A DNA stretch of 38,728 nt from a virus, in IMG/VR virus record IMGVR_UViG_3300006805_000015, positions 1-38,728 of that record. One strand, given 5' to 3'. Of this stretch, positions 3,304 through 14,467 are shown piece after piece; the first letter of the stretch is position 1; the number at the start of each line of letters is the position of its first letter. A model generated the notes under the pieces. The model saw only the letters and a program-made list of their open reading frames with translations, was not told the origin of the DNA and made no database searches. Made by a program: the position numbers and the translations under genes.

Positions 3304-4413
3304 ATGGCACACAAGACCTCAGACGGAACATGGCGCGTGCGAAAGCGCGCGCGAATCGACGGACGCCGCGTCCGCATCTCCGAGAACTTCCCGAACAAGG
3401 CGCAGGCCGAGCGGTTCGAGGCGGAGCTGCGGCTCGGGCGGATCATGGCGGCCGAGGTGGTCGCGGCGCGCGAGGTGGCGCCGGAGGCCAAGCTCGCGTT
3501 CGAGGTGTTCGCCGAGCAGTGGCTCGAGCGGTACTGCAAGGTCGAGAAAGCGCCGAGCCAGCTCGTGGAGGACGGGCGCGTGATAGCCGGGTACCTCAAC
3601 CCGGCGTTCGGCCGCGTCCTCGTCGGCGACCTTCGGCGGAAGCACCTAGTCGACATGCGGCAGGCGCTGTCGCTGCGGCTCGCCGCCGAGAAGATCCGGC
3701 CAAAGACCGCGAACAACGTCCTGGGGCTCGCCAAACGCATCCTCGAGACCGCGGTCGAGTGGGAGATCCTCGCCGCGAACCCGTTCAAGGGCGTGAAGCC
3801 GTTCCCCGGGAGCGAACAACCGTTCGCGTACTGGAAGCCGGACGAGCGCGACCACTTTCTGCGGTTCGCCCGCCAGGAGGACGCGCGCTTCGCTGAGGTG
3901 GTGCTCGTCGCAAGCCACACTGGCCTCCGCCGGTCGGAGCTCGAAGGCCTGCAGCGGCACCAGCTCGACTTCGAGCGGCGGCAGATAGAGGTGAGCGCCG
4001 GCTACTGCTTCAAGTCCCGCGCGCGGCACGAGCGGACCAAGAACCGGCTCGTGGCGTGGGTCCCGATGAACGACGTGGTGTTCGAAGCGCTCAAGGACCG
4101 CCAGCTCATGGCGCCGACGGCTCGGGTGTTCCCGCACACGTCCCTCCTGCACGCGTCGCGGCGCCTCCGCGAGCTGTGCCTGCGGGTCGGCGCCCGGCCG
4201 ATCCGGTTCCACGACCTCCGCCACACGTTCGCGTCGTGCCTCGTCATGGCCGGCGTGACGCTGTACACGGTGCAACGGCTCATGCGGCACGAGTCGATCA
4301 AGCAGACGGAGCGCTACGCGCACCTCGCGCCCGGTTACCTCGCCGACGCCGCCAACGCCCTCGTTCGAACGCCCGGCCCCGATTTGGCCCCGGCCCGAGC
4401 AGGCCTCTCGTAA
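3304..4413 (+). CDS. int: Tyrosine-family site-specific integrase, 369 aa
   Basis: An N-terminal arm-binding segment (about 1-50), a SAM-like core-binding domain (about 60-165) and a catalytic domain (about 170-345) are visible. Catalytic residues in order: R209 in TGLRR, K246 in the beta-hairpin, H303 and R306 in RFHDLRH, H329 in MRHES and the nucleophile Y338 in QTERYAH. Length is normal for phage integrases. It integrates the phage at a tRNA gene, judging by the tRNA 3' end just downstream at 4438-4462. A GGAG at 3293-3296 precedes the ATG. Confidence 0.95.
   Translation: MAHKTSDGTWRVRKRARIDGRRVRISENFPNKAQAERFEAELRLGRIMAAEVVAAREVAPEAKLAFEVFAEQWLERYCKVEKAPSQLVEDGRVIAGYLNPAFGRVLVGDLRRKHLVDMRQALSLRLAAEKIRPKTANNVLGLAKRILETAVEWEILAANPFKGVKPFPGSEQPFAYWKPDERDHFLRFARQEDARFAEVVLVASHTGLRRSELEGLQRHQLDFERRQIEVSAGYCFKSRARHERTKNRLVAWVPMNDVVFEALKDRQLMAPTARVFPHTSLLHASRRLRELCLRVGARPIRFHDLRHTFASCLVMAGVTLYTVQRLMRHESIKQTERYAHLAPGYLADAANALVRTPGPDLAPARAGLS
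4375..4391. repeat. 17-bp direct repeat, copy 1 (possible integrase arm site)
   Basis: GGCCCCGATTTGGCCCC occurs here, inside the last codons of int, and again at 4585-4601, 210 bp away. The two copies bracket the tRNA-like attP core. Arm-type sites recognised by the integrase N-terminal domain commonly flank the core as short direct repeats, so that is the suggested role. The repeat is seen; the function is inferred. Confidence 0.6.
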
Positions 4414-5203: not shown

Positions 5204-5473
5204 TTGAACACGACGACACCGCCCTCAGAAGGCCAAGCGCCGGCGTGCGCCAAGCGCGGCCGTGGACGCCCTTCGACGTTCTCCGCCACCACGGCCGAGC
5301 GCCTGCTCGAGCACGTGCGGCTCGGGTTCTCAACCGCCAAGGCCGCCCGCGCTGTAGGCGTCAGCGACCAGACGGTCCGCAACTGGCGCGAGCGCTTCCC
5401 CGAGTTCGCGATGGCGTACCACGCCGCGCTGGAGCACGCCGAGAACCGGCGGAAGGCGGCGCGGCTTGGCTGA
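5204..5473 (+). CDS. HTH protein resembling terminase small subunit (first of two), 89 aa
   Basis: Residues about 17-70 (GRGRPSTFSATTAERLLEHV, FSTAKAARAVGVSDQTVRNW, FAMAYHAALEH) form a homeodomain-like HTH of the kind found in terminase small subunits. The same layout occurs in the longer gene at 6716. The start is TTG 5204 with AGGAAGG about 7 bases upstream. That TTG overlaps the stop of a 7-codon leader (ATG 5184 to TGA 5205-5207). It may be a truncated paralogue or a regulator of the modification module; the gene at 6716 is the better candidate for terminase. Confidence 0.65.
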   Translation: MNTTTPPSEGQAPACAKRGRGRPSTFSATTAERLLEHVRLGFSTAKAARAVGVSDQTVRNWRERFPEFAMAYHAALEHAENRRKAARLG

Positions 5474-6053
5474 CACCACCTTGCGCGTCGAGTACCTGCC
5501 GCTCGCGGACCTGCTGCCGTATGCGCGCAACTCGCGCACGCACGACGACGCCCAGGTGGCGCAGATCGCGTCCTCGATCTTGGAGTTCGGGTTCACCAAC
5601 CCGGCATTGATCGACCCTGACAACGGCATTGTTGCCGGCCACGGCCGGGCTCTTGCCGTCGGACGCCTGACCATGAAGCAGATTACTTCCGGCTTCAAGG
5701 ATGAGGATGGTGTCCGACGCTTGCCAATTCCGGGACTTCGAGTTGTAGACAACGACGTCTTCGTCCCTTGCGTTCGCCTCGGGCACCTCACCGAGACGCA
5801 GCGCAAGGCGTACGTGATCGCCGACAACCGGTTGGCGCTGAACGCCGGTTGGGACGAACCGATGCTCGCGCTCGAGCTACAAGACCTCCAGGCCGCCGAG
5901 TTCGACATGAAACTCCTCGGCTTTGACCCGGAGGAGATGGCCAACATCATGCTCGGGCCGGACTTCTCGCCGACCGATGGCGCCGACCAGGGCAAGCTGG
6001 ACGAAAAGGCGAAGGTCACGTGTCCGGAATGCGGCCATGGCTTTACGCCTTGA
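5466..6053 (+). CDS. ParB/sulfiredoxin-like domain protein with C-terminal zinc knuckle, 195 aa
   Basis: Residues about 5-115 match the ParB-N/Srx fold used by phage ParB-like nuclease/methylase proteins: VEYLPLADLLPYARNSRTH, then NPALIDPDNGIVAGHGRALA with the characteristic GHGR turn, and YVIADNRLALNAGWD. Such domains are often fused to an adenine methyltransferase; here no methylase follows. The C-terminus ends VTCPECGHGFTP, a CxxC half-knuckle. TTG 5466 overlaps the upstream stop by 8 bases and the 3' end overlaps the Mom gene by 17 bases. Linkage to Mom suggests a partner in DNA modification (inference). Confidence 0.8.
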   Translation: MADTTLRVEYLPLADLLPYARNSRTHDDAQVAQIASSILEFGFTNPALIDPDNGIVAGHGRALAVGRLTMKQITSGFKDEDGVRRLPIPGLRVVDNDVFVPCVRLGHLTETQRKAYVIADNRLALNAGWDEPMLALELQDLQAAEFDMKLLGFDPEEMANIMLGPDFSPTDGADQGKLDEKAKVTCPECGHGFTP

Positions 6054-6723
6054 CTGGTGCGGCCACGACGCCGCGAAGTATGCAGTGGAGCATTGGCACT
6101 ATTCGCGGTGCATGCCGTCCGGGAAGCTCGTGCGCGTCGGGGCATGGGAAGACGAACGGTTCATCGGCGCGATCATGTACGGCCTCGGCGCCACGCCGAT
6201 GTTGTGCCGGCCCTACGGCCTCGCGATCAACCAAGTCGCCGAGCTCGTCCGCGTCGCCCTTGCGCCGCACAAAGCGCCGGTGTCCCGCATGATGGCCATA
6301 TCGCTCAAGATGCTCCGGAAGTTCTGCCCTGGCCTACGCATCGTCGTTTCGTTCGCAGACACGAACGAGGGGCACCACGGAGGCATCTACCAAGCGACGA
6401 ATTGGATCTATGCCGGCCGGTCTGACGCCGCCAAGTTCGGCGTCCTGAACGGCAAGGTGATCCACCCGCGGACGATATCCGAGATGGTCAAACGCGACCC
6501 TTCCGTACGTTCGCGGATGACGTGGACCGTCAAACAGGGCAAGCATCGATACCTGATGCCCCTCGACGATTCGATGCGGGCGTTCTGCGCGAAGCTCGCA
6601 CAGCCATACCCAAAGCGCGCCGGAAGCAAAGCGAACGTTGCGCCCGTCCACCAGACGGGAGAGGGCGGTGTAACTCCGACCCCGGCGCTCCACCTCCCCA
6701 CGAAGGAGGTCGGCAATGGCTAA
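6037..6723 (+). CDS. Mom-family DNA modification protein (GNAT-like), 228 aa
   Basis: The sequence aligns by eye with phage Mu Mom along its length: AVEHWHYSRCMPSG, GAWEDERFIGAIMYGLGA, PYGLAINQVAELVRVALAPH, SRMMAISLKMLRK, PGLRIVVSFADTNEGHHGG, IYQATNWIYAG. Mom converts adenine to N6-carbamoylmethyl-type adenine in Mu DNA and blocks many restriction enzymes. ATG 6037 is chosen because homology begins a few residues later; it sits in the palindrome GCCATGGC and overlaps the ParB-like gene by 17 bases. The C-terminal about 40 residues are low-complexity and may differ from Mu. Stop TAA 6721-6723 overlaps the next gene. Confidence 0.88.
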   Translation: MALRLDWCGHDAAKYAVEHWHYSRCMPSGKLVRVGAWEDERFIGAIMYGLGATPMLCRPYGLAINQVAELVRVALAPHKAPVSRMMAISLKMLRKFCPGLRIVVSFADTNEGHHGGIYQATNWIYAGRSDAAKFGVLNGKVIHPRTISEMVKRDPSVRSRMTWTVKQGKHRYLMPLDDSMRAFCAKLAQPYPKRAGSKANVAPVHQTGEGGVTPTPALHLPTKEVGNG

Positions 6724-7114
6724 AGGCGGCGCCCCCACGAAGCTCACGCCCGAGCTGCAGACCAAGATCGTCGCGTTCATACGCGCGGGCGGCTACGTCG
6801 AGACCGCGGCCGCAGCAGCGGGTATCAACAAGAGCACGTTCTACGACTGGCTCAAGCGGGGCGCCGCCCAAAAGGCAGGCCCCTACCGCGAGTTTTCCGA
6901 CGCAGTAGAAAAGGCGGCCGCCGAATCCGAGATGGCTGACGTCGCCCGCATCAACAAGGCGGCCCAGGACGGCGTGTGGCAAGCCGCGGCGTGGCGCCTC
7001 GAGCGGAAGTTCCCCGAACGTTGGGGACGCAAGGAACGCACGGACCCCGCGGCCGGCGGCGGCGATACGCCTATCGTCCTCCAGTACGTCCCCAAGTCGA
7101 AGCGCGCGAGCTAA
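6716..7114 (+). CDS. terS: Terminase small subunit (likely), 132 aa
   Basis: Residues about 1-60 form a homeodomain-like HTH (GGAPTKLTPELQTKIVAFI, YVETAAAAAGINKSTFYDWL), followed by helices YREFSDAVEKAAAESEM and DGVWQAAAWRLERKFPERWG. This is the standard architecture of many phage small terminases that recognise the pac/cos site and recruit the large subunit. A perfect AAGGAGGT at 6703-6710 lies 5 bases before ATG 6716, and the large-subunit gene follows after 3 bases. Confidence 0.82.
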   Translation: MAKGGAPTKLTPELQTKIVAFIRAGGYVETAAAAAGINKSTFYDWLKRGAAQKAGPYREFSDAVEKAAAESEMADVARINKAAQDGVWQAAAWRLERKFPERWGRKERTDPAAGGGDTPIVLQYVPKSKRAS

Positions 7115-7117
7115 CCC

Positions 7118-8578
7118 ATGTGGGCCTTGCTGATGACACTGGCGCTCCAACTCGCGTCGAGCACGCCGACCTTCTCGGCGTTCGACCCGAGCGTCATCCC
7201 GTATCAGGACCAGGTGGTCGACGACGTCCTGTGCCAGTACGACTATGGGCTCGGCGTCCACGAGCTACTGCTGTCGGGCGCTGTAGGCTCCGCCAAGTCC
7301 GTGCTCATGGCGCACCTGGGCATCCGGCATTGCCTCGAGTTCCCGCGCGCGCGCCTCCTGCTCGGCCGCAAGGCACTCCCGGACCTCAAAAAGACGATCT
7401 TCACGAAGGTGCTCGAGCATCTCGAAGGGTCTTTGAAGGAGGGGCGCGACTACACTGTGTCGCGCGCCTCCCCGTATATCCGCTTCCGCAACGGCTCTGA
7501 GGTCATCGTTACCACGTGGGCGGACAAGCGCTACAAAAAGGTGCGCTCCCTCGACATCTCCGCCGCGATCATCGAGGAGCTGACGGAGAACAACGACGAG
7601 GACAAGGAAGCCTACTTCGAGATCCTGATGCGCATCGGGCGCCTGCCGCACGTGCCGCAGGGCTGGCTGTGCGCCGCGACGAACCCTGACGGGCCATCGC
7701 ACTGGGTCTACGACCACTTCGAGCTCGGCAAGGACGAGAGCCTTGCCACGAAGGGAAGCGCGCTCGGACTCGGCCCGAACCAGGACCGCGCGCCCACGAA
7801 GCACGTCTACTACTCCGTCACCGACGACAACCCGTTCCTCCCCGACTCCTACAAGGAGCGCCTGCGGACCGGCCTGGACCCAAAGCGCTACATGCGCATG
7901 GGCAAGGGCCGGTGGATCGAGCTGAAGTCAGACGGCATCTACTACGCGTACGACAAGGCGCGGAACTACCGCGACGTGGACTACGTGATAAACGCGTCGT
8001 ATCCCGTCATCCTGGCTTGGGACTTCAACATCGGTGACGGCAAGCCGCTCAGCGCTGCGGTGATGCAATTCATCCGCGACGAGCTGCACATCTTCGGCGA
8101 GGTCGTCGTCGACGGCATCCGCACTGAGGAGAGCTGCGAGGAGATGGCCGCGCGCGGCTTCCTCGACCACCCGACGAGCTACGTCGTGTGCGGCGACGCC
8201 TCGGGGAAGCACCGCGACACGCGCAGCAAGCGCAGCGACTACGAGATCATCAAGTCGTTCCTGGCCAACTATCGAACGCCGGACGGCCGCGCGCTGCGGT
8301 TCGAGACCAACGTCCCCCTGGCCAACCCGCCGGTGCGCACGCGTCACAACGTGATGAACGCCTATTGCGCGAACGCCGCTGGCGTCCACCGGCTGTTCGG
8401 CTACCGCGGCGCGCCGACCGTCGACAAGGCGCTGCGCCTCACCGCGCTGAAGCCCGGCGGTCAGTACATCGAGGACGACTCGAAGCCGTACCAGCACATC
8501 GGCACAGCCGTCGGCTACGCCCTCGTCGCGCTCACGAAGAACGCCAACTCCAAGCCCCAAGGGATGGTGCAGCTATGA
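7118..8578 (+). CDS. terL: Terminase large subunit (ATPase-nuclease), 486 aa
   Basis: The Walker A motif GAVGSAKS is at 54-61 and the Walker B AAIIEE at about 149-154. The RNase H-like nuclease domain has acidic residues at D302 (ILAWDFNIGDG), D360 (VCGDASG) and a late cluster near SKPYQHIGTAVGYAL. This is a terminase of the Terminase_3/6 type that packages DNA into proheads. ATG 7118 is used; the first residues look like an artefactual signal peptide, so ATG 7133 is an alternative. The stop overlaps the portal start (ATGA). Confidence 0.93.
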   Translation: MWALLMTLALQLASSTPTFSAFDPSVIPYQDQVVDDVLCQYDYGLGVHELLLSGAVGSAKSVLMAHLGIRHCLEFPRARLLLGRKALPDLKKTIFTKVLEHLEGSLKEGRDYTVSRASPYIRFRNGSEVIVTTWADKRYKKVRSLDISAAIIEELTENNDEDKEAYFEILMRIGRLPHVPQGWLCAATNPDGPSHWVYDHFELGKDESLATKGSALGLGPNQDRAPTKHVYYSVTDDNPFLPDSYKERLRTGLDPKRYMRMGKGRWIELKSDGIYYAYDKARNYRDVDYVINASYPVILAWDFNIGDGKPLSAAVMQFIRDELHIFGEVVVDGIRTEESCEEMAARGFLDHPTSYVVCGDASGKHRDTRSKRSDYEIIKSFLANYRTPDGRALRFETNVPLANPPVRTRHNVMNAYCANAAGVHRLFGYRGAPTVDKALRLTALKPGGQYIEDDSKPYQHIGTAVGYALVALTKNANSKPQGMVQL

Positions 8579-14029: not shown

Positions 14030-14467
14030 ATGGCAGCAGTTTCCAACCGCGGCTTGGGCGTCGTCGTCGGCGCGCCGAACTCGAAAGAGAGCGAGATCGT
14101 CCGCGTGGTCTACGACTTCGCGGTCGACGGCGGTGCGACCGGCGCGCTCGACCTGCTCCAGGCGAGCGGCGCCCTGATCATCGAGGACGCGAGCGCGACC
14201 GTGAAAACGGCGTGCACCTCGGGCGGCTCGGCCACCGTCAAGTCCGGCCCGACCGCGGACGATGACCGCTTCATGACGACCACCCAAGGCGCCGTCGCGA
14301 GCCTCACGGCGAACGCGACGATCCTCCCGGTCGTCGTCGAAGGCACGCCGAACGTGATCGCGTGCCCGTACGCGGTCGCCGACGGCGGCAAGGTGACCAT
14401 GACGATCGGCACGGCGGCGCTCACCGCCGGCAAGATCGAGTTCTGCTTCCGGGTTCGCAAGGCCTAA
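14030..14467 (+). CDS. Capsid decoration / head-associated protein (putative), 145 aa
   Basis: The gene lies between two hairpins directly after the capsid gene, with GAGAGGA upstream of ATG 14030. The product is Ala/Thr/Val-rich and predicted almost entirely beta (VVGAPNSKESEIVRVVYDF, TVKTACTSGGSATVKSGP, TILPVVVEGTPNVIACP). Size and position match capsid-cement or decoration proteins. No catalytic motif. The assignment is by context. Confidence 0.6.
   Translation: MAAVSNRGLGVVVGAPNSKESEIVRVVYDFAVDGGATGALDLLQASGALIIEDASATVKTACTSGGSATVKSGPTADDDRFMTTTQGAVASLTANATILPVVVEGTPNVIACPYAVADGGKVTMTIGTAALTAGKIEFCFRVRKA

Follow-up and report, generated by a model that had tools for sequence, protein, structure and literature searches.

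We propose, with a probability of roughly 80%, that the mom gene of this virus fragment encodes two things, the Mom enzyme and, nested in the same open reading frame, a dedicated and translation-poor glycyl-tRNA that would feed Mom. The fragment is a 38.7-kb record, and by the window we mean the whole stretch of 38,728 nucleotides that was analysed; the evidence is sequence and predicted structure throughout. The tRNA was previously unannotated and had been missed by the first reading of the sequence. Earlier work predicted an acyl-CoA donor for Mom (PMC7824862), and one sentence in a conference report states that the adenine hypermodification of phage Mu depends on tRNA-Gly for glycyl transfer (PMC12908700). 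In the open-licence papers searched, we found no account that links a tRNA encoded by a phage to mom. The genes that concern us are the following.

3304-4413: integrase
5204..5473, + strand: short HTH protein (HTH1), TTG start, 89 aa; HTH_23, 2.4e-7
5466..6053, + strand: ParB-like protein, 195 aa, C-terminus ...CPECGHGFTP; PHROG 620, E 3.6e-50
6037..6723, + strand: mom, ATG start, 228 aa; Pfam PF25680, E 4.5e-46; PHROG 1384, E 2e-54
6617..6692, + strand: tRNA-Gly-like gene embedded in mom, 76 nt including U73 and an encoded CCA
6716..7114, + strand: terS (HTH2, terminase small subunit), 132 aa; PHROG 4102, E 1.7e-40
7118-8578: TerL (terminase large subunit), directly after terS

Successive genes overlap by 8 nt (HTH1 and the ParB-like gene), 17 nt (the ParB-like gene and mom) and 8 nt (mom and HTH2), and the start codon of terS lies inside the last codons of mom. 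The first-pass annotation had described four overlapping open reading frames in one run, and all of them are present at the positions listed above; the upstream ParB-like gene that ends in a CPECGH knuckle and overlaps mom by 17 nt is likewise as described there. Residues 1-193 of the mom product form the Mom domain, and its tail (residues ~194-228) comes from the embedded tRNA and 31 further nt. Elsewhere in the window, an open reading frame at 2056-2832 matches PHROG 12600 (8e-69) and carries the motif PPCERWGR.

The first clue to the tRNA was a blastn match between the 3' end of the window mom and the annotated tRNA-Gly of Salinibacter phage B2_17. We scanned the 3' ends of ~110 mom genes for a tRNA fold, with the T-stem bulge allowed or not, and almost every one had, at a matching position, an element of 63-73 nt followed by a discriminator and CCA. 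The median scan score of the real elements was 33, compared with a best score of 28 in shuffled and downstream controls. The window copy lies wholly inside the mom open reading frame, whose last 31 nt, stop codon included, follow the tRNA; it consists of the following parts.

6617..6623, + strand: acceptor stem, 5' strand, GCGCCGG; G1, C2 and G3 are glycine identity elements
6626..6641, + strand: D arm, GCAA-8 nt-TTGC, without G18G19
6643..6659, + strand: anticodon arm, CCCGT-CCACCAG-ACGGG; anticodon ACC at 6650-6652, with C35 and C36, and with C in place of U at position 33
6664..6681, + strand: T arm, GGCGG-TGTAACT-CCG[A]CC; bulged A at 6679, kept in 31/31 aligned relatives
6682..6692, + strand: acceptor stem, 3' strand, CCGGCGC, with discriminator U73 (6689) and CCA (6690-6692)

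The window tRNA departs from a canonical elongator tRNA in having A8, C33, no GG and the bulged A in the T stem. ARAGORN and Rfam RF00005 make no tRNA call on the window copy, which stays below their thresholds, probably owing to the T-stem bulge and the loss of canonical bases. The tRNA model has a second match in the window at 14070-14151 (19 bits, E 0.01), which is probably due to chance.

A covariance model trained without the window finds positions 6617-6692 at 88.2 bits (E 1.8e-19), and the single-sequence minimum free energy fold of the window element is a cloverleaf. Among 31 aligned relatives, 97.2% of cells are paired, compared with 74.7% after shuffling and 34-44.5% when the structure is slid. 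The covariation score in these 31 relatives is 0.628 against 0.181 for shuffled alignments (0/500 shuffles), compensatory double changes are seen in 17 of the 21 pairs, and RNAalifold returns the same cloverleaf unprompted. Since the length differences between elements are not multiples of three, and the phase in which mom runs into the tRNA varies, it is the RNA that is under constraint, not the peptide it encodes.

Bacterial tRNA-Gly identity resides in U73, G1-C72, C2-G71, G3-C70, C35 and C36 (PMC9976931), and the window element has every one of these. When 99 distinct 76-nt elements are counted, 3' and 5' classes together, G1-C72, C2-G71 and U73 are present in 99/99 and G3-C70 in 98/99, and C35 and C36 occur in all 67 elements whose anticodon arm is in the standard register. 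The stems around the identity positions vary freely through compensatory change. Less derived relatives (L187, L198 and L075) reach the gathering score of the Rfam tRNA family RF00005. By its fold, its covariation and its glycine identity elements, the window element is a derived tRNA-Gly.

The enzyme part of the gene can be assigned by profile and predicted structure. Pfam PF25680 matches residues 3-193 of the window Mom at 157.5 bits, compared with a curated cut-off of 27.1. The AlphaFold2 model of the Mom domain has a pLDDT of 96.3, and its best match in the PDB is Mu Mom (8bv8) with Z 19.7, whereas ordinary GNAT acetyltransferases score 13.2 at most. S83 of the window Mom aligns with Mu S124 (PDB numbering), and the title of 8bv8 names an inactive mutant, S124A; H21, Y22, R72, D108 and Y118 are invariant in 48 Mom proteins. 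Judged by this model, the window protein is a true Mom, with a predicted GNAT fold like that of Mu Mom and the conserved active-site residues kept. FemX-type enzymes are absent among the fold matches listed for the window Mom, and we therefore claim no link between Mom and FemX at the level of the fold. A divergent Mom clade, ~20-24% identical to the window Mom, is located between a ParB-like gene and the same tRNA (loci L103, L129, L130, L132, L133, L135, L151 and L156).

To avoid circularity in assessing the link between the tRNA and mom, we scanned viral contigs for the T-arm/acceptor signature alone. This RNA signature yielded 117 elements, and Mom is directly adjacent in 111 of them (65 elements follow Mom and 46 precede it). 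Of the other six, three lie against Mom fragments truncated at the contig end, one is 1.3 kb from Mom, and two are orphans that sit alone beside terminase genes. Searches anchored on Mom or on ParB recovered the tRNA in 72/80, 33/33 and 19/24 loci with Mom, compared with 0/37 of the ParB loci without Mom that served as a control. The near-exclusive association of the tRNA with Mom extends to well over 100 phage contigs. Mapped onto a tree of 246 Mom proteins, the arrangement requires 14 changes, compared with 83.8 after shuffling. A search of 84,980 species genomes gave the signature just 34 times, 21 of these directly next to Mom, and it is thus no feature of cellular tRNA-Gly. The Mu-type Mom loci that we searched contain no such tRNA, and it is also absent where Mom is present in a Firmicutes group (seven loci) and in Enterococcus phage phiEf11, so the tRNA is not required by every Mom.

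Carriers in culture include Salinibacter phage B2_17, whose tRNA-Gly is annotated, and Arthrobacter phage Sonny, whose element is unannotated. In Microbacterium phage Appa the sole tRNA of the genome is a canonical tRNA-Gly(CCC) directly after mom on the opposite strand (L158 6654-6728); being canonical and on that strand, it supports the association alone. Members of the tRNA family with no Mom nearby comprise four that are multicopy in Bacillota MAGs, one in Anaerococcus, located after a ParB-like gene, and two viral ones (loci L299, L252, L274, L287, L289, L307 and L314). In the Firmicutes locus without the tRNA at L159 6600-6750, and also in L068 and L072, a different conserved structured stretch follows the mom stop codon; it has a hairpin with the loop CGCTAA/CGGTAA and then a long stem, and it has no Rfam match.

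A ParB-like gene is found directly upstream of Mom in 70 of the 71 loci with enough flank. The C-terminal CxxC knuckle is present in 80/81 Mom-adjacent ParBs, where it is encoded near or over the mom start, compared with 3 of the 40 ParB loci that lack Mom; these 40 seem mostly to be long fusions of ParB to a methyltransferase. The knuckle is specific to ParBs next to Mom, and the recurrent linkage of ParB-like and mom genes, raised in the first-pass annotation as something to look for, is borne out by these counts. The same counts favour the reading with which that annotation began, in which the locus is set around a duplicated terS and its main feature is that the ParB-like protein, through its zinc knuckle, controls mom as Com does. 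As the principal explanation we consider it unlikely, since the duplication is unsupported and the embedded tRNA is left unexplained, and Com-like control could coexist with the tRNA. The window contains no match to a Com profile.

The window ParB-like protein misses the Pfam ParB_N threshold, and a PDB search with it gave chance matches only. We also considered a chromosome-partitioning ParB and rejected it, as the protein has only a ParB-like N domain (PHROG 620) and a short knuckle tail. An insertion of ~27 aa that follows the motif GHGRALAVGRL (5668-5757) is unique to the window copy: 97 relatives have 12 residues at this place and the window has 39, with 52% GC compared with 65% around it. 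In Arthrobacter phage Sonny, a 74-aa open reading frame (gp70, L161 2780-3004) stands between ParB and Mom.

HTH2 is a terminase small subunit by its profile match (PHROG 4102) and by its position before TerL. HTH1 matches several TerS families in its N-terminal HTH part alone (best 4e-12), and at 89 aa it is too short for a full-length TerS. The layout that the two proteins had been noted to share is visible, but BLASTP finds no alignment between them even at E 100. HTH1 recurs in only 4 other loci and is no recurrent part of the ParB-Mom module; of the two upstream proteins for which co-occurrence with mom across phages had been suggested as a check, the ParB-like protein shows it (70/71). 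TerS follows mom or the tRNA in 10/10 relatives tested, parB-mom-tRNA-terS is the ordinary order, and parB-mom-terS is found in unrelated phages. Given this ordinary order, the failure of HTH1 and HTH2 to align and the rarity of HTH1, the earlier idea that the module was inserted into or around a duplicated terS finds no support.

The tRNA is normally inside the mom open reading frame, at its 3' or its 5' end. Of 84 distinct elements in the 3' arrangement, 82 are read through by mom, which stops only downstream of the tRNA, and the two alternative frames are interrupted by stop codons in 43 and 60 of these 82 elements; in L075 and L157 mom ends shortly before the tRNA. In 32/33 loci of the 5' arrangement, no stop interrupts the mom frame anywhere along the tRNA, and 27 of the 33 offer a possible start codon 4-22 nt before G1. 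Excision of the tRNA would remove the mom stop codon in the 3' type and the start codon in the 5' type, so that a single transcript probably serves for one product only, full-length Mom or the tRNA.

A fold carried in the transcript at the junction of mom and terS, across which the mom frame stays open, might also be a cis element, such as an RNase P site, a stability element or a switch sensing glycyl-tRNA synthetase, that controls mom or terS and never serves as a glycine donor; tRNA-like leaders are known elsewhere. We regard this explanation as distinctly unlikely. A structural switch would not need the conserved glycine identity elements together with an encoded CCA, and the tRNA is found at the mom 5' end and just after the mom stop (L075, L157) as well. 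The tRNA-Gly that Mu hypermodification is reported to need also speaks against it.

Whether the nested tRNA takes part in translation can be judged from its departures from the canonical form. In a scan that allowed either form, the T stem of all 3' elements from the Mom-anchored environmental loci has the bulged A, which sits at the surface gripped by EF-Tu. In the 3' class, U8 is kept in 6/60 elements and U33 in 18/51, a normal G18G19 D loop is seen in about 4/60, and position 32 pairs with position 38 in 47/51, closing the anticodon loop. The window's tRNA belongs to this 3' class, which is probably not a class of translation tRNAs. The marks of escape from translation are uneven, since the element of Arthrobacter phage Sonny has no T-stem bulge and the 5' class mostly keeps U8, U33 and the D-loop GG. 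In a short class (alignment A2, L013 and relatives), a small covarying helix of 2 bp takes over from the normal D arm; its columns 14-15 pair with columns 40-41 as GC/CG and CG/AU.

Phages often carry tRNAs, and the Appa copy and the 5' class are near-canonical, which would suit a normal phage tRNA that adds to the supply for glycine codons, or a decoy replacing host tRNA-Gly that host defences have damaged. Both versions are very unlikely for the window, however, as the 3' class is without decoding features (the bulge, no U8, U33 or G18G19, a closed anticodon loop), many members are without a normal D arm, and 111/117 elements touch mom, which is unexpected for codon supply or a decoy. Finally, although the window has an integrase (3304-4413) and tRNA genes are common integrase targets, it is hardly credible that the element is a pseudogene or an attP relic left when the virus integrated at a host tRNA-Gly gene, because it lies ~2.2 kb from the integrase, is complete and strongly covarying, is fixed to mom in >100 contigs and two gene arrangements, and has a signature so rare in species genomes (34 times in 84,980) that it is no copy of a host tRNA-Gly.

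We return to the dedicated glycyl-tRNA that would feed Mom. From the sequence we infer the charging of the tRNA, its donation of glycyl, its escape from EF-Tu, the either/or processing and a role for the ParB-like protein, and these steps could fit together as follows. The tRNA would be cut out of the mom transcript and charged by the host glycyl-tRNA synthetase, for which it keeps all identity elements. It would evade EF-Tu and translation through its bulged T stem, degenerate D loop, anticodon loop and position 8. Mom would then move the glycyl group from the tRNA to the N6 of adenine in phage DNA. The product in Mu is N6-carbamoylmethyl-adenine, in which glycinamide is joined to the purine via its alpha nitrogen. 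A rearrangement in which the glycine nitrogen attacks the purine C6 and the original N6 is released as the amide would give this carbamoylmethyl product; we offer this step as a chemical suggestion. The ParB-like zinc-knuckle protein is the constant partner, and it probably acts in DNA targeting or in the control of mom.

We also lean, with less assurance than for the window itself, towards a wider reading. The elements may represent a class of tRNA for DNA modification and not for translation, in which an enzyme and its aminoacyl-tRNA co-substrate share one open reading frame and are made one or the other per transcript, and in which the tRNA has been freed from the ribosome and EF-Tu with the determinants for glycyl-tRNA synthetase kept.

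The route by which Mom makes its unusual adenine has long been unexplained, and the embedded glycyl-tRNA suggests the donor from genome anatomy, in agreement with the tRNA-Gly dependence reported for Mu. A self-contained pair of enzyme and tRNA is on offer for biochemistry. If the proposal is true, DNA would join the substrates of aminoacyl-tRNA-dependent transferases, the elements would be natural examples of tRNAs that evolved away from translation, and the tRNA would point to phage genomes whose DNA is likely to be glycine-modified. Such tRNA genes escape standard tRNA finders.

Compared with canonical tRNA-Gly (RF00005), the element has the same cloverleaf, U73, G1-C72, C2-G71, G3-C70, C35, C36 and CCA; it differs in the bulged A of the T stem and in being embedded in an open reading frame, and U8, U33 and G18G19 have disappeared from most members of the 3' class, many of which have a rebuilt or missing D arm. 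The likeness to the Mom/Com system of Mu extends to the enzyme family and fold (Z 19.7), the correspondence of S83 with Mu S124, the conserved residues, an overlapping upstream gene with a zinc knuckle, and the reported tRNA-Gly dependence of Mu (PMC12908700). Mu differs in having no tRNA near mom, so that host tRNA-Gly is presumably used, and its upstream partner is Com, whereas the partner in the window is ParB-like. The other close parallel is with the non-proteinogenic tRNA-Gly of Staphylococcus, dedicated glycine tRNAs for FemXAB, the non-ribosomal aminoacyl transferases that build the peptidoglycan bridge (PMC4052509). In these cell-wall tRNAs, whose losses are related to those of the 3' class, G18G19 is replaced and T-stem features lead to weak EF-Tu binding (PMC4052509). 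They differ in that they are chromosomal, serve cell wall synthesis, keep a near-canonical fold and lie outside the gene of their enzyme, whereas the glycine tRNA of the window is carried within the gene of the enzyme that it would supply.
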